Of a stretch of 64,000 nucleotides of DNA, positions 5,532 to 33,535 are shown piece by piece. Every line of letters begins with the position of its first letter. The first letter of the stretch is position 1. Under the pieces are notes generated by a model, which saw nothing but the letters and a program-made list of their open reading frames with translations, was not told where the DNA came from and did not search any database. Source of the stretch: Sphingopyxis sp. LK2115 (GTDB lineage: Bacteria; Pseudomonadota; Alphaproteobacteria; Sphingomonadales; Sphingomonadaceae); the NCBI RefSeq assembly GCF_014595975.1, contig NZ_JABWGQ010000036.1, forward strand, positions 1 to 64,000, read 5' to 3'. A program made the position numbers and the translations under genes.

Positions 5532-6673
5532 CCAGCGACCGCATCCTCCACGACGCGCTGATCGGTCGGCAGGGAAGCCGCGCCGACCTCAACACCCCGG
5601 TGCTGATCCTCGACCAGGGCGCGCTCGACCGCAACATCGCGCGCATGGCGGCACTCACCAAGGCGGCGGGCGTCGCGCTCCGCCCCCACGCCAAGACGCA
5701 CAAGAGCATCGCCATCGCGCGCCGTCAGCTCGATGCGGGCGCGGTCGGCGTCTGCTGCGCCAAGATCGGCGAGGCAGAGGTGCTGGCGGGCGGCGGCATC
5801 ACCGGCATCCTCATCACCTCGCCCGTCGCCGCGCCCGCTGCGATCGCGCGTCTCGCGACGCTTGCGGGGCGTGCCGAGGGTCTGATGGCGGTCGTCGATC
5901 ATCCGGCGGTCGCCGCGCGGCTGGACGCGGCGCTCGCGGCCGAAGGCGCGCGGCTCGACGTCATCATCGACATCGACCCCGGCATCGCGCGCACCGGTGT
6001 GGCGTCGGCCGAATCGGCGGTCGCGCTGGCGCGGACGATCGAGGCGCTGCCGACGCTGACCTATTGCGGCGTGCAATTCTATTGCGGGTCGCAGCAGCAT
6101 ATCGAAAGCTATGCCGAACGCCGCGCGGCGATCATCGAGCGGACGGACTATTTGCGGGACGTCATTGCTGCGCTCGCTGCCGCCGGTTTTGCGCCATCCA
6201 TCGTCACCGGGTCGGGCACGGGCACGCACCGCATCGACCTCGACCTCGGCGTCTTCACCGAGCTTCAGGCGGGCAGCTATGTCTTCATGGACAAGCAATA
6301 TCTCGATTGCGAACTGGCCGAGGGCGAGGCCGCGCCGTTCGAGGTGGCGCTTGCGGTCGATGCGCGCGTGGTCAGCGCCAACCACGGCGGCCTCGTCACG
6401 ATCGACGCGGGGTTCAAGTCGCTGTCGACCGACGGCGGCGTCGCGGTTGTGCGGCGCGGTGCGCCCGAAACCGCCTTTTTCGCCTTCATGGGCGACGAAC
6501 ATGCGGCGCTGATCGCCCCCGGCATCGGCGACACACTGCGCCCCGGCGATCCGGTCAGCCTGACGGTTCCGCACTGCGACCCGACCGTCAATCTCTACGA
6601 CCATTATCATGTCGTCGCGGGCGACACGCTGATCGACATCTGGCCGGTCAGCGCGCGCGGCTGCGCCCGATGA
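5528..6673 (+). CDS. D-threonine aldolase / D-serine dehydratase-like PLP enzyme (alanine racemase N-terminal fold)
   Basis: 381-residue fold-type III PLP enzyme. RPHAKTHK at 52-59 carries the PLP lysine (most likely Lys56). The C-terminal D-ser_dehydrat domain ends with PHCDPTVNLYDHY, whose His349 and Cys350 match the metal-binding His/Cys of this family. Members split D-3-hydroxy amino acids (D-threonine, D-phenylserine) to glycine plus an aldehyde, or dehydrate D-serine. The start is the ATG in the ATGA overlap with the upstream oxidase; the frame stays open further upstream but that part overlaps the oxidase gene. Its stop also overlaps the TetR start as ATGA, so three genes form one coupled unit. 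Confidence 0.88.
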   Translation: MTSDRILHDALIGRQGSRADLNTPVLILDQGALDRNIARMAALTKAAGVALRPHAKTHKSIAIARRQLDAGAVGVCCAKIGEAEVLAGGGITGILITSPVAAPAAIARLATLAGRAEGLMAVVDHPAVAARLDAALAAEGARLDVIIDIDPGIARTGVASAESAVALARTIEALPTLTYCGVQFYCGSQQHIESYAERRAAIIERTDYLRDVIAALAAAGFAPSIVTGSGTGTHRIDLDLGVFTELQAGSYVFMDKQYLDCELAEGEAAPFEVALAVDARVVSANHGGLVTIDAGFKSLSTDGGVAVVRRGAPETAFFAFMGDEHAALIAPGIGDTLRPGDPVSLTVPHCDPTVNLYDHYHVVAGDTLIDIWPVSARGCAR

Positions 6674-7326
6674 CGACGCGGCCCGCGCCCAAACAGGCGC
6701 GCGCGCAGCAGACGCGCGACCGCCTGCTCGACGTTGCGGGAGGCTTGCTTGCCGAGGTCGGGCTGGAGCGGATTTCGACCAATTTGATTGCCGCGCGCGC
6801 AGGGGTCAGCCCGCCTGCGCTCTATCGCTATTTCGCCGACAAATATGCGGTGCTGGAGGCGCTGGGGCACCGGCTGATGGACCGGCAGAATGCTGTGCTC
6901 GATCGCTGGATTGGCCGTCACGCGCCCGGCGGGATCGCGGCGATGGCGGACCATATCGGCGACCTGCTCGCTGCCAACGCCGCGATAACGCGCGCCGAAC
7001 CGGGGGCAGTGTGGATATTGCGCGCGCTCCATGCTTCGCCGCAGCTCGTCCATGTCCGGATCGAATCGCACCGTGCGGTGACCGACCGCCTCGCCGCCGC
7101 CTGCGCGCCGTATCTGCCGCACCTCGATCCGGCGATCCTCTGGGCGCGGCTGCGCCTTGCGGTCGAGATCGGCTTTGCCGCCGACGAAATGCTCCATGAG
7201 GAGGATCGCATTGCCGCCGAGCGGTTGTTTGCCGATGTCGCGGCGCTGCTGCGCGCCGCGCTTCTCGATGTCGATGCGCCGCTCCCCGCCGCAACGATGC
7301 TTCCCTTTCGGCGATCCACGCTTTAG
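6670..7326 (+). CDS. TetR family transcriptional regulator
   Basis: 218 residues with an N-terminal helix-turn-helix at about 35-62 (ISTNLIAARAGVSPPALYRYFADKY would be the recognition unit; only its ends, ISTNLI and YRYFADKY, are needed to see it). The C-terminal ligand-binding domain is not assignable to a subfamily. It is the last gene of a three-gene ATGA-coupled cassette and probably binds the palindrome at 4216-4235 in front of that cassette. Only 12 bases separate its stop from the PBP1A start, so PBP1A may be partly co-transcribed with it. Confidence 0.88.
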   Translation: MTTRPAPKQARAQQTRDRLLDVAGGLLAEVGLERISTNLIAARAGVSPPALYRYFADKYAVLEALGHRLMDRQNAVLDRWIGRHAPGGIAAMADHIGDLLAANAAITRAEPGAVWILRALHASPQLVHVRIESHRAVTDRLAAACAPYLPHLDPAILWARLRLAVEIGFAADEMLHEEDRIAAERLFADVAALLRAALLDVDAPLPAATMLPFRRSTL

Positions 7327-26021: not shown

Positions 26022-26798
26022 TCAGTTGATCGTGACGAACCGCGCCATGTCGGCGCGGGTCAGGTAGCGCACCTCGTTGAAAGGCGTCGCATTGGTCAGC
26101 GCATAAAATTCGCGCGCCTTCGCCGCGTCCATGCCCAGTTCGCGATAAAGGGCGATATAGTCGGCGTGGACCGGGTCGTCGGCCGGATAGTCGTTCGCCT
26201 CGCGCCCATGTTCGTCGGCCCAGCTATGGACGCCGAACTCGGCGTCGGGCGCCGCGCGCCGCGTCGCGCCCGCGAGCCACAGCTCGACCGCGCCCGATCG
26301 GACCGACCCGCCGCTCGGCACCACGGTTTCCAGCCCGGCGCGGCGGATCGCGCGGGCGAGCGCCAGATTGGCATCCTCGTCAAGGCTGCCGGGGCAATCG
26401 ACCATCTCTATGCGCTTGAGGCCGGGAAAGGCGACGAGCATCGCCGCGAACTGGCGTGGGGTCGCCGAAGTGACGTCGCCGACCATGCGGACTGTTGCCG
26501 CGTCGACCACCGAAAAAGGACCGAAACGCGCCTTTGGATGCCCCAGCGTGGCAAGCGTGGCGGCAGGCGCATAACGCCGCGTCGCCCCGAACGCCTCTTC
26601 CTCGGCCAGCGCTTCATCGTCGAGGAGCGCCGCATCCTCCTCGATAAAGCCCAGGTCATCGTCGCTCGCGTCGATATGGGTCCACGTCACGGTCGTGGTG
26701 ACGATCGTGACCCACTGCGCCTGCGCCGGCGCGAGCGCCAGCACCGCGGCGAACGCGGCGACGACAAGCGTGCGCAACAGGGCAAAGGGCGAAACCAT
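26022..26798 (-). CDS. Secreted protein with ClpP/periplasmic-serine-protease-like domain
   Basis: 258 residues with a clear signal peptide (cleavage after APAQAQ, about residue 28). After an acidic linker (43-70) the middle resembles the COG3904 predicted periplasmic proteins of the ClpP/crotonase fold. A helix ALARAIRRAGLETVVPSGGS leads to Ser168 (VRSGA), and FGVHSW follows with His191, the expected nucleophile and base. A catalytic acid is not pinned down. It is the last gene of the TetR-headed run. No function is known and the protease reading is an inference. Confidence 0.6.
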   Translation of the reverse strand: MVSPFALLRTLVVAAFAAVLALAPAQAQWVTIVTTTVTWTHIDASDDDLGFIEEDAALLDDEALAEEEAFGATRRYAPAATLATLGHPKARFGPFSVVDAATVRMVGDVTSATPRQFAAMLVAFPGLKRIEMVDCPGSLDEDANLALARAIRRAGLETVVPSGGSVRSGAVELWLAGATRRAAPDAEFGVHSWADEHGREANDYPADDPVHADYIALYRELGMDAAKAREFYALTNATPFNEVRYLTRADMARFVTIN

Positions 26799-26883
26799 GC
26801 CCCCATTCTCGCGCGCCCGCGATGACCAATTGGCAAAGCGGCAATGTCAGCGCCGCATTAACCGCGATATGGGACGGCGCAGG

Positions 26884-27543
26884 TCAATCGCGGCCCGACA
26901 CGTCGAACGGGAAATGGCTGCGATAGGGGCGGGCATCCTCGATGCACCGCGACACGCTCGGCCGCGCGAGCAGGCGGGCGCGATACGCGCGCACTCGTGC
27001 ATGGCGTGGATCGATCGGATGAACCCAGTCGGCATAGAAGAGCGCCGGCGCGGCGGCGCAGTCCGCCAGCGAGAAGCCGTGCGGCGTTGCCCAGCCGTCG
27101 TCGGGCAGCTTGGTCTCGAGCCAGCCATAGGCTTTTTCGAGCAGGTCGCGTGCGCGTTCGACGCGGGCAAGGTCGGGTTTTTCGGTGATAAAGGGCAGAT
27201 ATTCGGCAACCACGGCCTGAAAACGCGCCTGGAAATGATTGTCGAAGATCCGGTCGAGGAAGCGGAGTTCGAGCGCCACCCGCGGGTCGGCAGGGATCAG
27301 TCGCGGGTCCGGGACTCTCTGGTCGAGATATTCGATGATGATCGACGATTCGAAAATCGGAACGCCATCGTCGACGATCAGCGGAAACTGACCGACCGGC
27401 CAATGGGATCGCAGTTCGTCATAATGGGTGAACGGTTCCTCGGTCTCAAGCGCGCGATATTCGAACGCGACGCCCTTTTCATACAGTGCGATCAACGCCT
27501 TCCACGCGTAGGACGAGAAGGGATGGCCATAGAATATCAGCAT
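26884..27543 (-). CDS. Glutathione S-transferase family protein
   Basis: 219 residues. The N-terminal thioredoxin-like domain starts MLIFYGHPFSSYAWK, with the cis-proline GQFPLIVDDG and the glutathione gamma-glutamyl contact FESSIIIEYLD. The C-terminal half is helical. Its ATG is 4 bases after the stop of the VOC gene at 27548, so the two are translated as a pair. The pairing of a GST with a VOC protein suggests conjugation or reduction of small electrophiles. Confidence 0.88.
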   Translation of the reverse strand: MLIFYGHPFSSYAWKALIALYEKGVAFEYRALETEEPFTHYDELRSHWPVGQFPLIVDDGVPIFESSIIIEYLDQRVPDPRLIPADPRVALELRFLDRIFDNHFQARFQAVVAEYLPFITEKPDLARVERARDLLEKAYGWLETKLPDDGWATPHGFSLADCAAAPALFYADWVHPIDPRHARVRAYRARLLARPSVSRCIEDARPYRSHFPFDVSGRD

Positions 27544-27547
27544 CGCG

Positions 27548-28030
27548 TCAACCCTTCACTGCGGCCTCGATCGCCGCAATGTCGATCTTCTTCATCGTCA
27601 TCATTGCCTCGAACGCGCGCTTGGCGGCCGCCTTGTCGCTGCCCGTCGTTGCTTCGAGCAGGACGCGCGGGGTGATCTGCCAGCTCACGCCCCATTTGTC
27701 CTTGCACCAGCCGCAGACGCTTTCCTGCCCGTCATTGCCGACAATCGCGTCCCACAGCCGGTCGGTTTCCTCCTGCGTGTCGGTGTGGACGATGAAGGAA
27801 AAAGCCTCGCTATGCTTGAATATCGGCGGGCCGTTGAGGCCGATGCACGGCGTTCCGAGCAGCGTGAACTCGACCGTCAGCACATCGCCTTCCTTGCCGC
27901 CCGGCGTGTCGACGGGGGCGCGGTGAACCGCGCCGACATGGCTGTCGGCAAAGGTTGCGGCATAGAAATTGGCCGCTTCCTCGGCATCGCCTTCGTACCA
28001 GAGGCACAGGGTCAGGGGGGTCTTGCTCAT
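27548..28030 (-). CDS. VOC-superfamily protein, PhnB / 3-demethylubiquinone methyltransferase-like
   Basis: 160 residues. The pattern TLCLWYEGDAEEAANFYAATF, then HTDTQEETDRLWDAI and WGVSWQITP is that of the PF06983 group (named after UbiG-like and PhnB proteins, but of unknown activity). Two beta-alpha-beta-beta-beta modules are expected. The start is set by AAGGAGAGTGACGATG, a ribosome-binding context almost identical to those at 29910 and 32730. Confidence 0.85.
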   Translation of the reverse strand: MSKTPLTLCLWYEGDAEEAANFYAATFADSHVGAVHRAPVDTPGGKEGDVLTVEFTLLGTPCIGLNGPPIFKHSEAFSFIVHTDTQEETDRLWDAIVGNDGQESVCGWCKDKWGVSWQITPRVLLEATTGSDKAAAKRAFEAMMTMKKIDIAAIEAAVKG

Positions 28031-28070
28031 CGTCACTCTCCTTGTTGGAATCCGTGGCCGCAACGCGGCG

Positions 28071-28370
28071 TCAGCGCCGGTAAAAGCGCAGCGGTTTGGT
28101 GTCGGCGCGCGCCATCTGCCCGCGCGCCTCGAGGTCGAGCTGCACGCCCTTTTGCCACCAGCCCGCCTTTGCCCCGCCGGGAAACAGCGTGTCGGGCAGC
28201 AGCGGCAGCAGCCGTTCCTTGATCTCCGCCGCGGTCAGTCCCGGCGCCTCGGTCGGCACCACCGCCAGCATGGCCGCGCGCATCGCGTCATATTTCGCGC
28301 GTTCGACGCGCACCACATGGTCCGGGCTGTTCACGTTCCGCATCTCGACGCGGTCGTCATTCTTCGTCAT
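28071..28370 (-). CDS. DUF6958-like protein
   Basis: 99 residues, MTKNDDRVEMRNVNSPDHV at the start, then VDRxKYxAMR-type (VERAKYDAMRAAML), APGLTAAEIKERLLPLLP, and LFPGGAKAGWWQKGVQLDLE. The GGAKAGWW segment and length match a family I recall as DUF6958; the winged-helix-like layout is an impression. No function is known. It sits between a GST and a VOC gene. Confidence 0.65.
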   Translation of the reverse strand: MTKNDDRVEMRNVNSPDHVVRVERAKYDAMRAAMLAVVPTEAPGLTAAEIKERLLPLLPDTLFPGGAKAGWWQKGVQLDLEARGQMARADTKPLRFYRR

Positions 28371-28398
28371 CGTGCAAATCCTTCTTTGCTTGCCGCGC

Positions 28399-29037
28399 TC
28401 ACGCCTCCAGCGCGGCAAACCCCTTGGCAATCGTTACCGGCGCCCTGGGCCGCGCATACATGGTGTCGAGAAAGGCGCGGAGCGCCGGGGCATCGTCCAG
28501 CAGCATTTCCTCGCGCGCCCAGTCGAGCGTGAAGGCTGCGTTGAAATCGGCGACGGTCAGCGCGTCGCCGACCAGGACGTCGCGCCCCTGCATATGCTGT
28601 TCGAGCACCGCGATCATGCGCCGCGCGTCGCGCTTTGCCAGCGCAATTTCGGATTCCGACCGTTCCTCCGGCGCATAGATGAAATTGTGGAGCGCGATGC
28701 GCCACAGCGGTGCCTCGATCTCGGTCATCAGGAAGAACAGCCATTGGTACATGCGGCCACGATCTTCGGGCGTCGCGGGGATCAGCCCGCCGCCGGGGAA
28801 GCGCCCCCCATATTTGTCGGCGAGATAGAGCTGGATCGCCGCCGATTCGCTGATCACCGTGTCGCCGTCGACCAGCACGGGCAGCTTGGCGGCGGGATTG
28901 AGCGCAAGAAACGCGGGTGTCAGCTGCTCGCCGGCGGCAAGATCGACCGGGGCGATTTCGTGCGGCAGGTCGAGTTCGTTAAGCAGCCAGATCGCGCGCA
29001 AGGCGCGCGTCGGGGGAGTGCCGTAAAGCCTGATCAT
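28399..29037 (-). CDS. Glutathione S-transferase family protein
   Basis: 212 residues: N-terminal MIRLYGTPPTRALRAIWLLNELDL, cis-proline NPAAKLPVLVDGD and SESAAIQLYLA for glutathione, then a helical domain with the VADFNAAFTLDW segment typical of theta/beta-class-like GSTs. GAAGGAG precedes the ATG. A 150-base spacer separates it from the tandem DUF1428 gene upstream. Confidence 0.9.
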   Translation of the reverse strand: MIRLYGTPPTRALRAIWLLNELDLPHEIAPVDLAAGEQLTPAFLALNPAAKLPVLVDGDTVISESAAIQLYLADKYGGRFPGGGLIPATPEDRGRMYQWLFFLMTEIEAPLWRIALHNFIYAPEERSESEIALAKRDARRMIAVLEQHMQGRDVLVGDALTVADFNAAFTLDWAREEMLLDDAPALRAFLDTMYARPRAPVTIAKGFAALEA

Positions 29038-29187
29038 CTTCGCTCCTTCAACCCTCCCGGCGCCGACGGCATGGAGAGGGGGATCATCGGCGGAAGGGTG
29101 GAAGGGCCGCGAGCCGTGCCAGTGCCGCCTTCGTCAGCCGTCGGGGCTGCCGCCTCCCCATGGTTTGGCCACGCGGGGCAGCGGGCG

Positions 29188-29910
29188 TCACGCTTCGACG
29201 ATCGGCACGAAGCCGCCATAGATCATGCGCCTGGCATCGAACGGCCGTTCCTCTTCGGGGCCGGGGTTCATCCGTTCGTCGGCCATCACCTTTTCCCAGC
29301 CGCTGTCGCGCGCTTCCCTGCTCGGCCATTCAACCCAGCTGAACACGACCGTCTCGCCATCTTTTTTGTGCGCGGCGCGGGCATAGTCGGTGACCTCGCC
29401 GCCGGGCACATCGTCACCCCAGTTTTCGACGACGCGCGTCGCCCCATGTTCGATGAAAACATCCGACGCCATTTTCGCCAGCGCGCGATAGCGCTCCTTG
29501 TTGGCGTCCGGGACGGGGGCGACGAAACCGTCGACATATCCGGTTGCGCCGCTGCCGCGATCATCGAGGATCGACTCGAAACCGCCGATGATCATCCGCT
29601 TGCCGTCGAATGGCATGGTGGCGCCCATTTCCTTCATCCGGGGGTCGGACATGATCTTTTCATTCGCGGCATCGCGCGTCGCCCGGTCGGGATATTCGAA
29701 CCAGCTAAACACGACGGTTTCGTCTGCTCTGGCCTGCACCGCGCCCTTGAAGTCGTTGATCTTGCCGTCGGGCACATCATCGCCCCACGCCTCGACCATC
29801 CGCCTGACGCCGAACTCTTTGAACAGCGGCGCTGCGTCGGCGGCATGTTTGCGATAGGCGTCCTTGTTGGCGGTCGGCACCGCGACTACAAATCCTTCCA
29901 CATAGGTCAT
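29188..29910 (-). CDS. Tandem DUF1428 protein (two fused copies)
   Basis: 240 residues made of two DUF1428 units, 1-115 and about 124-240. Both have a YVxGFV start, a GDDVPxGx motif (AWGDDVPDGK; NWGDDVPGGE), ETVVFSWxEYP/EWP and a GFxxI end. DUF1428 proteins are normally single-copy about 115-120 residues in the dimeric alpha-beta barrel (ABM-like) fold, so this is a covalent dimer made by duplication. No enzymatic role is established. Its start is AAGGAGAGAGACGATG. A longer upstream frame is not used. Confidence 0.82.
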   Translation of the reverse strand: MTYVEGFVVAVPTANKDAYRKHAADAAPLFKEFGVRRMVEAWGDDVPDGKINDFKGAVQARADETVVFSWFEYPDRATRDAANEKIMSDPRMKEMGATMPFDGKRMIIGGFESILDDRGSGATGYVDGFVAPVPDANKERYRALAKMASDVFIEHGATRVVENWGDDVPGGEVTDYARAAHKKDGETVVFSWVEWPSREARDSGWEKVMADERMNPGPEEERPFDARRMIYGGFVPIVEA

Positions 29911-29939
29911 CGTCTCTCTCCTTCGGGGGCAGGCAGTCG

Positions 29940-30614
29940 TTATCGGGCGGGCGGACCCGCCTCTTCGCTGAACGCGGCAAGCTGTGCGTCGAGCGCACGC
30001 TGAAAGGCGGGCCGTGCAAGGCATCGGTCGAGATAGGTCTGGAGCCGCGGCTGCTCGGCAACCAGCCCCGCCTCGACGGCTTCGCGCAGCACCGTCGCCA
30101 TCGCGATGTCGGCGACGGTGAAGTCCCCCGCCAGATAGGGCTTGTCGCCCATTGCGTCGTTCAGGCGGCCGAGTCGGCCGCGGATGAAGGCGATCAGGCC
30201 AGGGCGACGCAGCTTGGCCCACTCTTCGTCCTTCGCGAAAATATCGACATTGCCGAGCTCGAACAGCATTGGCTCGACACTGTTATAGGCGGCGAACAGC
30301 CAGGCGAGCGTGTTCGCGCGGCCCTGTGGATCGCGCGGCATCAACCGTTCGTCCTTTTCGGCGAGGTGGAGCAGGATCGCGCCACTTTCGAACAGGCGGA
30401 TGCCATTATCGTTGAGCACCGGCACCTGCCCCCACGGCTGGAACAGGAAATGGTCGGCGGGGCGGTTGACCGCGCTGATCAGATGTTCGGCATAATCGAG
30501 GTCGATTTCCTCGCACGCCCAGCGCGGGCGCAGGTCGCGGACAAAGCCGCGCGCGAAACCCGGCACCCAGTCGAAGGCGGTAACCTCGATGGCGGCATGA
30601 GGATTGATCGGCAT
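29940..30614 (-). CDS. Glutathione S-transferase family protein
   Basis: 224 residues, with a slightly longer N-terminus (MPINPHAAIEVTAFDWVP) before the thioredoxin-like domain. It has GQVPVLNDNGIRLFESGAIL and a helical C-terminal domain containing FTVADIAMATVLRE. The active-site residue is not obvious (DWVPGFARGF). It is the third GST of this run, 29 bases before the tandem DUF1428 gene. Confidence 0.85.
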   Translation of the reverse strand: MPINPHAAIEVTAFDWVPGFARGFVRDLRPRWACEEIDLDYAEHLISAVNRPADHFLFQPWGQVPVLNDNGIRLFESGAILLHLAEKDERLMPRDPQGRANTLAWLFAAYNSVEPMLFELGNVDIFAKDEEWAKLRRPGLIAFIRGRLGRLNDAMGDKPYLAGDFTVADIAMATVLREAVEAGLVAEQPRLQTYLDRCLARPAFQRALDAQLAAFSEEAGPPAR

Positions 30615-30644
30615 GGGGGGATTCCTCTCGCTTCGTCCCTGGGA

Positions 30645-31607
30645 TCAGAAGACCGGCGGCGGCGGCGCCTTGTCGTCCAGAAAAGGCACGACCATCGCAG
30701 CGATAGCGGGCGCTTCGGCCATGATCCCGATGTGCGATGCCGCAGGCAGGATCGCCAGCCGCGCCTTGGGCGCTTCGGTCAGGAAACCCTGCGTCGCCGC
30801 CGCGACGTCGCCGCCGCCGCGCAGCTTGAAGAGCGCGATCGCATGGTCGAGCGTCACGCCGTCGGCATCGCCGATGATCACCATCGTCTTGCCGGGGATC
30901 GCGCGGACCGCGGCGTCGGACCAGCCAAAGGGCGTGGCGTCGAGTTTCTTGATATTCTCGACGAGTATGGGGAACTTTTCCGGCGCAGGCGACAGTCGTT
31001 CATATTCGGTCTCGATGATCGTGTTCGCGAAAAACTCGGGCTTGATCGCCGCAATGCCCGCCAGCACTTCGGGATACCAACCGTCGAGGCGCGAGGTTGC
31101 CGAAAGGATGATCTGCTTGCCGACCCTGTCGGGGTGCCGGATCGCCAATGCGATCGCGGTCGACCCACCCATCGAATAACCGAGCACATCGACCTTTTCG
31201 ACGCCCAGCTTGCCCAGCACCGCGGCGGCGTCGTCGGCCATGCGGTCGTAATTCAGCGGCGTATCGACGCCGCCTGACCGGCCATGGCCGCGCGCATCGA
31301 TCGCGATCACCGGCCGCGTCGCGGCGAGCGGCGCAATCAGCGGCCGCATCGCATCGGCCGACATAAAGGCGCCATGCAGGACGAGCAGCGGGGTGCCACC
31401 CGCCCTTGAATCGCCATAGATCTGGTAATGGACGGCCGCACCGGCAACGTCCACATGACCATGCGCGGAGGCGTTGACCGGCGCCACCGCGGCGGCGGGC
31501 GCTTCCGCCGCGGCGCTCTGCGGCATCGCGACGAACGCCAGCGCGGCAATGATTTTCGCGAACACCGCGCCCGCGGCCAGTGGGGGGAGGGGAGAAAGGC
31601 TTATCAT
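30645..31607 (-). CDS. Secreted alpha/beta hydrolase
   Basis: 320 residues with a signal-like N-terminus (about 1-35, SAAAEA) followed by an alpha/beta hydrolase domain. The oxyanion strand is LLVLHGAF, the nucleophile elbow GYSMGG has Ser145, a DARGHGRSG motif precedes it, an IIGDADG acid strand and an AASHIGIM histidine complete the triad. The sequence resembles carboxylesterase/haloperoxidase-type hydrolases; the substrate is unknown. Confidence 0.85.
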   Translation of the reverse strand: MISLSPLPPLAAGAVFAKIIAALAFVAMPQSAAAEAPAAAVAPVNASAHGHVDVAGAAVHYQIYGDSRAGGTPLLVLHGAFMSADAMRPLIAPLAATRPVIAIDARGHGRSGGVDTPLNYDRMADDAAAVLGKLGVEKVDVLGYSMGGSTAIALAIRHPDRVGKQIILSATSRLDGWYPEVLAGIAAIKPEFFANTIIETEYERLSPAPEKFPILVENIKKLDATPFGWSDAAVRAIPGKTMVIIGDADGVTLDHAIALFKLRGGGDVAAATQGFLTEAPKARLAILPAASHIGIMAEAPAIAAMVVPFLDDKAPPPPVF

Positions 31608-31636
31608 TGGACGATCCTCATTCTTGAAAACGGCGA

Positions 31637-31855
31637 CTAGCTTCGTTTGCCTTTGATCCACGCGACGATTGACATGGCGTGGCCGTGACCCAGGCCGTAA
31701 TCGGCCCTGAGCCAGTCGATCACCGCGCCGGCCTTGACGCCGGGAGCGAGGCCCTTTTCATCGGCCAATCCCTTCTGGATCGCCTGTGCAGCCAAGGCAT
31801 CGGGCGATTGCCCCGTTTTGGTTCGAACATTGTCGAGATAGGCTTGGAAGCTCAT
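31637..31855 (-). CDS. DUF4287 domain protein
   Basis: 72 residues starting MSFQAYLDNVRTKTG; the SFQAYLDNV and AMSIVAWIKG segments are those of DUF4287, a small helical domain of unknown function. The ATG overlaps the stop of the DoxX-like gene (ATGA), so the two are coupled. Confidence 0.85.
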   Translation of the reverse strand: MSFQAYLDNVRTKTGQSPDALAAQAIQKGLADEKGLAPGVKAGAVIDWLRADYGLGHGHAMSIVAWIKGKRS

Positions 31856-32268
31856 GCCACCGCTCCCTTTCGGAACGGAATCATCGCGCGGACTCGCGGG
31901 TCGCGCAGCCACAGGCCGCCCCACAGCATCACGCCCAGATAGACGCCGAACAATATGTGGCTGAACAGCGGGTTGCCGACGCGGACCTGCGTGGCGATCG
32001 CGCCGCCCAGATAGGCTGTGATCAGGATCGCGCCGAGGATGCTCGTGCGCGGCCAGACATGGAGCAGCGTCGGGATCAGCAGCAGGATCGCCAGCAGATA
32101 CATGGTGCCGACCTCTGCCGGCCAGCCGAGGTTCGGCGGACTATATTTGATTGCGGTCTCGGGCGACACCAGCTTGAGCCCGGCGTCAAAGAGGAGGAAG
32201 GCGACCACCAGGCCGCTGAGCGCGCGGCCAAGGATCAGCCGATGTTTGGCGGGGGCTGTACCGGACAT
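31852..32268 (-). CDS. DoxX-like membrane protein
   Basis: 138 residues with four hydrophobic segments (about 12-35, 50-70, 75-95, 100-120), matching the DoxX-like family (PF13564). Early residues read GRALSGLVVAFLLFDAG. DoxX-like proteins are often encoded with thiosulfate/antioxidant or glyoxalase genes and have no firm function. It is ATGA-coupled to DUF4287. Confidence 0.82.
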   Translation of the reverse strand: MSGTAPAKHRLILGRALSGLVVAFLLFDAGLKLVSPETAIKYSPPNLGWPAEVGTMYLLAILLLIPTLLHVWPRTSILGAILITAYLGGAIATQVRVGNPLFSHILFGVYLGVMLWGGLWLRDPRVRAMIPFRKGAVA

Positions 32269-32292
32269 TTTTCTTCCTCCCTCATGCGTCGA

Positions 32293-32730
32293 TCAGGCGG
32301 CCGTTTCGGCGGGTTCGCCGGCGGAAATTGCGGCGGGGTCCATCCACATCACTTCCCAGATATGGCCGTCGGGATCCTCGAAGCTGCGCCCGTACATGAA
32401 GTCGCCATATTCCTGCGTCGGCGTGGGGTCGGCGGCGCCGCCCGCGGCGGTCGCGCTGGCGACCAGCGTGTCGACGTCGGCGCGGCTGTCGGCGGAAAGG
32501 GCCAGCAGCACCTGCGCGTGGGTGCGCGCATCGGGGATCGTCTTTGGCGTAAAGCTCGCCCATTTTTCATGCGTCAGCAGCATGACATGGATCGCCCCTT
32601 CCTCGACCACCATGCAAGCGGCGGTGTCGTCGGTGAAGGCGGGGTTGTTGACGGCACCGATCGCGGCATAAAAGGCCTTCGATCTTTCGAGGTCGGCAAC
32701 GGGCAGGTTCACGAAAATCATTCGGGGCAT
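32293..32730 (-). CDS. VOC-superfamily glyoxalase/bleomycin-resistance-like protein
   Basis: 145 residues starting MPRMIFVNLPVADLERSKAFY, a glyoxalase-type first module, with ADVDTLVASATAAGG and SFEDPDGHIWEVMW in the second module (the D-P-D-G-H metal-binding end). Two ATGs are available; AAGGAG is 7 bases before the one at 32730 and 1 before the one at 32736, so the shorter form is chosen. The Zn/Fe ligands are not fully clear. It is the first gene after the TetR gene. Confidence 0.85.
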   Translation of the reverse strand: MPRMIFVNLPVADLERSKAFYAAIGAVNNPAFTDDTAACMVVEEGAIHVMLLTHEKWASFTPKTIPDARTHAQVLLALSADSRADVDTLVASATAAGGAADPTPTQEYGDFMYGRSFEDPDGHIWEVMWMDPAAISAGEPAETAA

Positions 32731-32797
32731 CGTCATTCTCCTTCGTGGGGGTGTCGAGGTCAGCGCGCTCCGCGCGCCGCGGCAATTACCTGTCGCA

Positions 32798-33499
32798 TCA
32801 TGCGGCGCCGTTCCGTGCAAAAAGCATGGCGACATAGCGCTTCAGATGGGTGACGCTTTCGCGCGCGATCGCCGGATCGTTCGCCGATTTGGCGAGGATG
32901 AACGATCCCTGCAGAACGGCCTGGATGTGGCGCGCAAGGCCGATGGCGGTGACGCCTTCGGGCTTGCCGTGGCGTCCGAACGCCGCTTCGATGTCGGGGA
33001 CAAGCGCTTCGCAATAGGCGTTGAGGCTGGCTTCGCACGCTTCGCGGATCGCTTCGCTTGTCGCATAGGCTTCCTGCACCATCGTGCCGACGAAGCAGGT
33101 ATAGTCCTCGGTCGGCCCGCCCAGCATCGACAGGCGGAAATCGATATGGCCGAGCAGCCGGTCCAGCGGATCGTCGAGCCGGGTGTGGGGCGGCAGTTCA
33201 AACAACGGTCGCGCACGGTCGGTCCAGCCCTCGGCGGCGGCGACCGCGAGTGCCTCCTTCGACGCGAAATGATGGAAAAAGGCGCCCTTTGTGACGCCGG
33301 CGGCGGCGCAGATCTGGTCGACCGTCGTTGCGGCATAGCCCTGTCGGCGCACGAGCTGGTGCGCCGCTGCGATCAGCGCCGCGCGCGCGCTGCCGCGGGG
33401 CGCCCGGCCACCGGCGGTGCCGCCGCCCGCCGGGGGGGCGGTGCGGGCGGCGGCGTCGCGGCGCGCGGGGGAGGTCGGGGGCATCCGATTCGTCGTCAT
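32798..33499 (-). CDS. TetR family transcriptional regulator
   Basis: 233 residues, with an Ala/Arg/Gly-rich disordered N-terminus to about 38 and the TetR helix-turn-helix at about 58-82 (TTVDQICAAAGVTKGAFFHHF region). The C-terminal half has the TetR_C pattern seen in regulators of detoxification genes. The ATG follows an operator-like palindrome by 8 bases. A downstream ATG at 33484 is an alternative. It begins a same-strand run to 26022. Confidence 0.9.
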   Translation of the reverse strand: MTTNRMPPTSPARRDAAARTAPPAGGGTAGGRAPRGSARAALIAAAHQLVRRQGYAATTVDQICAAAGVTKGAFFHHFASKEALAVAAAEGWTDRARPLFELPPHTRLDDPLDRLLGHIDFRLSMLGGPTEDYTCFVGTMVQEAYATSEAIREACEASLNAYCEALVPDIEAAFGRHGKPEGVTAIGLARHIQAVLQGSFILAKSANDPAIARESVTHLKRYVAMLFARNGAA

Positions 33500-33506
33500 G
33501 TGAACA

Positions 33507-33535
33507 GACATACCGACTGGTTGGTATGTTGTCAA
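33507..33535 (-). promoter_or_regulatory. Promoter and TetR operator fused to the regulator start
   Basis: On the minus strand TTGACA (33535-33530; perfect -35) is followed after 17 bases by TATGTC (33512-33507). The palindrome ACATACC...GGTATGT (33508-33529, 22 bases, 9 of 11 pairs) fills the spacer and -10. Transcription would begin about 7 bases later at the ATG (33499), so the mRNA would have little or no leader. This is the classical layout for an autorepressing TetR protein; the divergent comM promoter is 150 bases away and probably independent. Confidence 0.75.

Follow-up and report, generated by a model that had tools for sequence, protein, structure and literature searches.

The described systems closest to the locus reported here are two sets of thiol-based regulators and their target genes. 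In the nemR-nemA-gloA operon of Escherichia coli, the TetR-family regulator NemR is inactivated by electrophiles, and with readthrough into gloA the operon drives glyoxalase I, as reported in PMC3739934. In Bacillus subtilis, the MarR/DUF24 (HxlR) regulators HypR, YodB and CatR are described as sensing hypochlorous acid (HOCl), quinones and diamide via a conserved N-terminal cysteine, which is Cys14 in HypR (PMC6943732) and Cys6 in YodB (PMC6798810). Here we describe a gene cluster headed by a TetR-family gene in a stretch of 64,000 nucleotides (nt) from Sphingopyxis sp. LK2115 ('the window', part of contig 35 of a 3.2 Mb genome). With a probability of about two in three, we read it as a thiol-sensing, autorepressed electrophile-defence operon, consisting of the TetR gene and ten others, from a VOC gene (starting at 32730) to the third of three glutathione S-transferase (GST) genes, GST3 (ending at 26884). 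The TetR protein would sit on a lone palindrome in the spacer of its own promoter and keep the whole unit off until an electrophile or oxidant, such as a methylglyoxal-like aldehyde, a quinone or reactive chlorine, modified it, most likely at Cys135. The modified protein would then leave the DNA, and the VOC, GST, hydrolase and DUF proteins would be made together and consume the electrophile. In relatives, much the same cassette would be governed by an unrelated, cysteine-bearing HxlR protein.

The resemblance to nemR-nemA-gloA lies in a TetR-family regulator heading what would be its own operon, glyoxalase gene included, and extends to the regulator itself, which has a TetR_N domain (61 bits against a Pfam cut-off of 24) and, in its ligand domain, a cysteine aligned to Cys106 and a lysine aligned to Lys175 of NemR. 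Unlike in the E. coli operon, ten genes follow the regulator rather than nemA and gloA, and Pfam finds no NemA-type reductase among them. The Sphingopyxis TetR differs from NemR in that it falls below every NCBIfam equivalog cut-off and has an LmrA/YxaF-like C-terminal domain, and in that its electrophile response is a prediction; no NemR model is among the 17 NCBIfam matches listed, the top one being ScbR-type (57 bits against a cut-off of 150, covering the DNA-binding end only). The models for AcuR and CurR are matched over part of the ligand domain, at 42.5 and 37.1 bits, which is far under their equivalog cut-offs of 247 and 300 bits. The HypR/YodB-type regulons share features with sister cassettes in related genomes, the HxlR protein of which is closest in the PDB to YodB and keeps a cysteine aligned to Cys14; unlike HypR and YodB, this protein is about 205-240 residues long, with an extra C-terminal region, and by position its targets would be VOC, GST and DUF1428 genes. 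No description of the cassette was found in the open-licence literature, as judged from titles and abstracts, and the available part of a Sphingopyxis granuli transcriptome paper makes no mention of the cluster.

Read from its promoter, the proposed unit is composed of the following features, in coordinates of the window.

33530-33535, minus strand: -35 box TTGACA, directly next to the operator at 39 of 40 strict-operator loci of the genus
33508-33529, minus strand: putative operator palindrome ACATACCAACCAGTCGGTATGT, of the form ACATACC-N8-GGTATGT
32798-33499, minus strand: predicted TetR-family repressor (Pfam TetR_N), with invariant Cys64, Cys135 and Lys204
32293-32730, minus strand: VOC/glyoxalase-family protein (Pfam PF00903; nearest solved relative 4gym)
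31852-32268, minus strand: DoxX_2 membrane protein (Pfam)
31637-31855, minus strand: DUF4287 protein (Pfam), its start overlapping the DoxX gene by 4 nt
30645-31607, minus strand: alpha/beta hydrolase (Pfam), with an N-terminus that looks signal-like by eye
29940-30614, minus strand: GST1 (Pfam; best solved relatives 2ycd and 3lq7)
29188-29910, minus strand: tandem DUF1428 fusion protein (Pfam, two domains; the family of E. coli YbaA, 2okq)
28399-29037, minus strand: GST2 (Pfam)
28071-28370, minus strand: DUF6958 protein (Pfam)
27548-28030, minus strand: PhnB-type VOC protein (Pfam PF06983, 3-dmu-9_3-mt; nearest solved relative 1u69)
26884-27543, minus strand: GST3 (Pfam), placed as the final gene of the unit

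The -10 element, TATGTC (33512-33507), follows TTGACA by exactly 17 nt, and the palindrome occupies the spacer between the two boxes and most of the -10 itself. The TetR ATG lies about 7 nt past the -10, with a similar spacing in many loci of the genus, which suggests that the transcript is probably leaderless. The palindrome is present in a single copy in the 3.2 Mb genome, and was not found in any of 100 shuffles of the window. For comparison we used 43 loci from the genus, comprising the window and L032-L073, in which genes were called by a codon-usage script; some of these loci are truncated, and as they are related the counts drawn from them are not independent. The pattern CATAC-N10-GTATG is found in 40 of the 43, once in each and close to the TetR start, while the core TACCRACYRGTYGGTA occurs exactly once in 71 of 80 genus genomes, is missing from nine and is duplicated in none, with no match to the reversed pattern. 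Among 298 genomes of the family, in which TetR was called at E 1e-30, the operator pattern is found in 23: 22 of the 29 TetR-positive genomes and one of the 269 TetR-negative ones (G309, where the match has an unrelated core). The reversed control again gave none. TACC-N8-GGTA lies close to the TetR start in 69 of the best 80 named loci, and the stricter core in 62. The arrangement is that expected of an autoregulated TetR operon, with a palindromic operator in the regulator's own promoter that is conserved in its orthologues. Genome G116, which is TetR-positive, contains a further exact copy of the operator before a VOC-DUF1428-PhnB group (L104, offset about 5750), with no TetR match within the 12 kb examined around the site; this is a probable second target, which would be regulated in trans. 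The idea of several separate TetR-controlled operons in the window was rejected, as it holds a single operator only.

A search of 47 other genomes of the genus gave a TetR orthologue of at least 64% identity in 42; in G012 and G040 the distal cluster is present, with a contig end at DUF1428, and G015, G017 and G047 gave no TetR match. From TetR to the ClpP-like gene that follows GST3, or to the end of the contig, 516 of the 517 genes at the 43 loci lie on one strand, the sole exception being a large gene in L073, located between GST3 and AHSA1. The gaps have a median of 25 nt, are 50 nt or shorter in 376 of 474 cases and include 125 overlaps, and pairs of genes keep the same relative order in 2837 of 2839 observations. 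Such conservation of order and strand across 43 loci puts the arrangement far beyond chance. Between four and 17 genes follow TetR at these loci, and relatives have members with no counterpart in the window: a double-VOC protein (35 loci), a further VOC protein (23), a GFA-family protein (22), DUF899 (18), AHSA1 and SnoaL-like proteins, and a VOC-looking protein without a Pfam match. A family of 150-residue membrane proteins, also without a Pfam match, is encoded between PhnB and GST3 at 26 loci (for example at 6341-6793 from TetR in L033), by a gene that overlaps or almost touches both of its neighbours. The closest relative, L032 (TetR 95% identical), carries genes for GFA and double-VOC proteins at junctions where the window has neither. 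On this comparison the cassette within the genus is an ordered mosaic, the members of which appear to have been gained and lost; the GFA and double-VOC difference between L032 and the window (27548-29037) would represent a recent loss or gain.

The same families also accompany the regulator beyond the genus. They follow TetR on the same strand in all 25 further loci from the family, where TetR identity is 41-66%; 24 of these lie outside Sphingopyxis and one, L075 in genome G335, within it. The best 80 named loci, many of which repeat the genomes of L032-L073 such that the sets are not additive, come from Sphingopyxis, Sphingorhabdus, Novosphingobium, Paracoccus, Caulobacteraceae, Hyphomonadaceae, Rhizobiales and others, mostly within the Alphaproteobacteria with a few outside. 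A gene from the cassette's repertoire lies no more than 4 kb downstream of TetR, on the same strand, at 43/43, 25/25 and 78/80 loci of these overlapping sets, versus 0/20 loci of control TetR paralogues, which perhaps form largely one paralogue group and hence amount to fewer than 20 independent controls.

The candidate sensor residues of the TetR protein are strongly conserved. Cys64, Cys135 and Lys204 are present in all 78 TetRs that are readable among the best 80 named loci, and Cys155 in 69 of the 78. A profile search of the PDB placed NemR (4yze) third, with Cys135 aligned to the 4yze cysteine that corresponds to NemR Cys106 and Lys204 aligned to a lysine hand-counted as 177 in the chain, or 175 after subtracting the same offset of 2 that applies to the cysteine. 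In PMC8748444, 4yze is described as a form of NemR keeping only Cys106, and the role of the NemR lysine as disputed. An electrophile or oxidant is our best guess for the inducer. The invariant Cys64 (about 33308-33310 in the window, DQICAAAGVTKGAFFHHF) lies within the DNA-binding domain; the position of 4yze aligned to it has no cysteine, though 4yze has its other cysteines replaced. Cys64 is a possible second sensing site.

DUF1428 is found in 106 of 149 family genomes, most of which lack this TetR. We compared 20 TetR-less DUF1428 loci (L238-L257), which were hand-picked, partly for visible cassette neighbours or a tandem DUF1428, a choice that biases any description of them as the same cassette. 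They contain parts of the cassette, with the order largely preserved (VOC, DoxX or GST1, DUF1428, double VOC, PhnB, GST3, AHSA1), with no TetR-profile match and no TACC-N8-GGTA at any of the 20. Instead, a divergent HxlR gene stands at the head of 19, the exception being L249, and this HxlR gene was found at none of the 148 TetR loci examined, in overlapping sets. Two of the HxlR proteins were scanned with Pfam and match the HxlR domain (PF01638) at 71 and 69 bits. One N-terminal cysteine is invariant in 19/19 HxlR proteins and aligns with position 14 of 4a5m (YybR, which we take to be HypR), and the best PDB match is YodB (5hs7); an HxlR domain with a cysteine at the N-terminal sensor position is the make-up of a HypR/YodB-type sensor. 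A stretch resembling AGTTA...CAACTATGAAGTTA...TAACT is conserved at 19 of these loci, where it overlaps the start of HxlR and precedes the first cassette gene. It is likely to be the HxlR operator; a strict form of the pattern is found at 6/20 TetR-less loci and 0/148 TetR loci.

At the level of sequence, the two regulators exclude one another. At 112 DUF1428 places outside the genus (same-genus genomes left out, and tandem rows mostly collapsed), HxlR lies within 5 kb at 60, TetR at 10, both at none and neither at 42; viewed from the regulators, DUF1428 is within 5 kb of 59/66 HxlR places and 10/17 TetR places. At E 1e-30, HxlR was found in 132 of the 298 family genomes, the window's own genome not being one of them, and it occurs together with TetR in 3 of the 29 TetR genomes against 12.8 expected (P about 4.5e-5, uncorrected for relatedness). 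At L242, an HxlR-headed cassette lies between comM and the ClpP-like, PGPGW and rnpA genes, exactly where Sphingopyxis has its TetR-headed cassette. On a tree of 82 PhnB proteins the head regulator has to change ten times, at least eight of these changes being forced by well-supported branches, whereas 500 shuffles gave a mean of 15.6 and none as low; long rows in the tree are perhaps misplaced, and the PhnB copies are assumed to be comparable. The regulator would therefore have been inherited together with the gene in part and exchanged in part, with gene exchange between cassettes an alternative that could also cause the conflicts in the tree. At the level of sequence comparison, the presence of two unrelated regulators of thiol-sensing type on one cassette is the strongest indirect support for electrophile chemistry. 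A broader reading, the odds of which we regard as evenly balanced, is that of an alphaproteobacterial electrophile-defence cassette, largely ordered and gene-accreting, with an exchangeable thiol-sensing repressor, either a NemR-like TetR or a HypR/YodB-like HxlR, that would have been swapped repeatedly (the ten changes in the PhnB tree), once at the same comM-rnpA place. It would consist of VOC, DoxX/GST, DUF1428, double VOC, PhnB, GST and AHSA1, with optional DUF4287, DUF6958, DUF899 and GFA, and the DUFs would be new electrophile-handling proteins.

Counting the ClpP-like gene, twelve genes (TetR and eleven others) run on the minus strand from 33499 down to 26022, all with Pfam matches above cut-off except this last open reading frame. 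From TetR onward the intergenic gaps are 64, 24, -4, 29, 30, 29, 150, 28, 40, 4 and 85 nt. An earlier note, made from the sequence alone, had described this same-strand run with its families and gap sizes, and the Pfam matches, open reading frames and coordinates bear it out. It had also seen no internal terminator, in agreement with a scan of the window that found eight terminator-like sites against 7.1 expected and one promoter-like site against 1.2 expected, neither giving an internal signal above chance. The 150-nt gap has the length it was given, but is not empty, as it holds a copy of a palindromic repeat. Strand, gaps and order all suggest a single unit, and we predict co-transcription on this basis. 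Rfam found no family above its gathering score in the window, and DUF6958 gave only a weak match in the PDB. Similar 25-nt ribosome-binding regions precede the VOC (32725-32749), DUF1428 (29905-29929) and PhnB (28025-28049) genes, at 76-84% to the reference copy.

The downstream boundary of the unit depends on the status of the gene that follows GST3.

26022-26798, minus strand: secreted ClpP-fold protein (fold from an AlphaFold model), a flanking core gene placed outside the unit by neighbourhood comparison

It had been labelled 'secreted ClpP-fold-like', and the fold is right: the AlphaFold model (mean pLDDT 80.1) matches ClpP over model residues 86-258 (VIA-align Z 14.5, root-mean-square deviation 3.2, 152 residues aligned, 15% identity). 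Pfam gave no match at E 0.1 and NCBIfam none at 0.001; the protein has the fold of the ClpP/S14 peptidases without a match to the Pfam family. The gene is present in 46 of the 47 other genus genomes, including TetR-less G015 and G017. In G017 (L102) and G043 (L106), comM, the ClpP-like gene and rnpA are consecutive with no cluster between them, the G043 cluster being on another contig, and in five relatives (L131, L133, L137, L138 and L144, three of them labelled Sphingorhabdus) the ClpP-like gene lies upstream of TetR. With comM as the reference, these five and the Sphingopyxis loci have the cluster on opposite sides of the ClpP-like gene. The cluster-free places and the upstream positions led us to reject the ClpP-like gene as the last member; on present comparisons it is part of the comM-rnpA neighbourhood, and the unit ends at GST3 (26884). 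The single TetR-headed detoxification unit proposed in the earlier note is strongly supported by comparison, in promoter and operator, strand, order, families and the thiol-sensor type of the regulators, but has to give up the ClpP-like gene.

The sole long gap within the unit, directly after DUF1428, contains one further feature.

29038-29187, minus strand: 150-nt gap with a degenerate copy of the dispersed palindromic repeat SPR1 (74% over 125 nt)

SPR1, a name coined in this analysis, is about 133 nt long, and its consensus has a predicted fold of -104.9 kcal/mol (z -9.8). It has between 2 and 80 matches in each of 13 genus genomes (four in the genome of the window); eight genomes from other families gave none. 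Of the 40 genus loci with DUF1428, 22 carry the repeat behind this gene. Both orientations occur, even among closely related species, and at the score used no other junction of the unit contains it. In four more species (L044, L045, L051 and L046), the same junction is occupied by other palindromic repeats, SPR2 or SPR3. It is as if a hairpin were favoured after DUF1428, or as if the junction were an insertion hot spot. No report of a palindromic interspersed repeat in Sphingopyxis was found in the open-licence literature.

A number of observations weigh against a thiol-sensing, autorepressed operon. Three of the 43 genus loci lack a strict operator (two have one-base variants and one a damaged half), as do 7 of the 29 TetR-positive family genomes for the operator pattern, and 11 of the best 80 named loci are without even TACC-N8-GGTA. 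Two of these 80 have no cassette gene downstream (L152, and L168, where such genes lie upstream), a DUF4287-like gene is found upstream on the same strand in 5 of the 20 control paralogues, and order varies outside the genus, with PhnB preceding DUF1428 in L074, L136 and L145 for instance. A cysteine at the NemR Cys106 position is present in 5/5 of the PDB relatives shown and the lysine in 3/5 (4yze, 3knw and 3bru); the pair is common to several PDB relatives, and is therefore no specific mark of an electrophile sensor. A sensor built on NemR still reacts when the lysine is missing (PMC8748444). The TetR C-terminal domain is nearest to LmrA/YxaF in Pfam (28.5 bits, cut-off 27), not to NemR, and the stable hairpin repeat found after DUF1428 in many relatives could split expression of the unit. 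TetR proteins usually bind ligands, and with the same operon and operator the TetR pocket might sense one particular small molecule that is not reactive, whether a xenobiotic or a metabolite, the genes then constituting a degradation or modification pathway instead of a broad defence against electrophiles. Such a view can draw on the LmrA/YxaF-like model being the only one in Pfam whose cut-off the C-terminal domain passes, on the ligand-domain cysteine and lysine shared with 3bru and 3knw, and on the alpha/beta hydrolase, DoxX and the relatives' SnoaL and AHSA1 members, which would fit a pathway. However, the gene content is a loose menu with gains and losses, unlike that of a fixed pathway, the regulator that heads the cassette in place of TetR is an HxlR protein with a HypR/YodB-type cysteine, and Cys135 is invariant (78/78); we consider sensing of this kind unlikely.

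The remaining alternatives concern how far a common control extends. TetR could govern the first genes only, with internal promoters or the hairpin repeat (29038-29187) dividing the run into TetR-to-DUF1428 and GST2-to-GST3 parts, and the long gap after DUF1428, in which most loci of the genus have a palindromic repeat (SPR1 in 22/40, SPR2 or SPR3 in four more), is where such a division would fall. Yet none of the 43 loci, and none of the 80 genus genomes, has a second strict operator, promoter-like sites are not above chance, and the distal genes keep the strand, order and short gaps of the proximal ones; DUF1428 and the distal genes run on together in HxlR-headed loci too, where the repeat was not searched for. 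A division of this sort is quite unlikely in our view, although we keep open a partial split at the repeat. That the cluster is a neighbourhood brought about by chance or history, a site gathering small stress-protein genes with no common control, appears highly improbable. The frequent change of members between species would be expected of such a site, as would its recurrence in the comM/ClpP-like/rnpA region of several genera and the 42 of 112 DUF1428 places outside the genus with neither regulator within 5 kb, but not the uniform strand, the order kept in 2837/2839 pairs, the many start/stop overlaps, the recurrence of these families behind homologous TetRs elsewhere on the chromosome, or the operator before cassette genes lacking a TetR in G116.

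An electrophile-defence operon under a thiol-sensing TetR would link DUF1428, DUF4287, DUF6958, DUF899 and the PhnB-type VOC proteins to GSTs and glyoxalase-fold proteins under one type of regulator, and the precise operator and two candidate sensor cysteines make the functions of these five DUF or poorly understood families directly testable, in a genus that is harmless. The exchange of regulators would provide independent support for the electrophile chemistry; if true, a single cassette with its thiol-sensing regulator swapped between two unrelated families would represent a clean natural case of regulator replacement.

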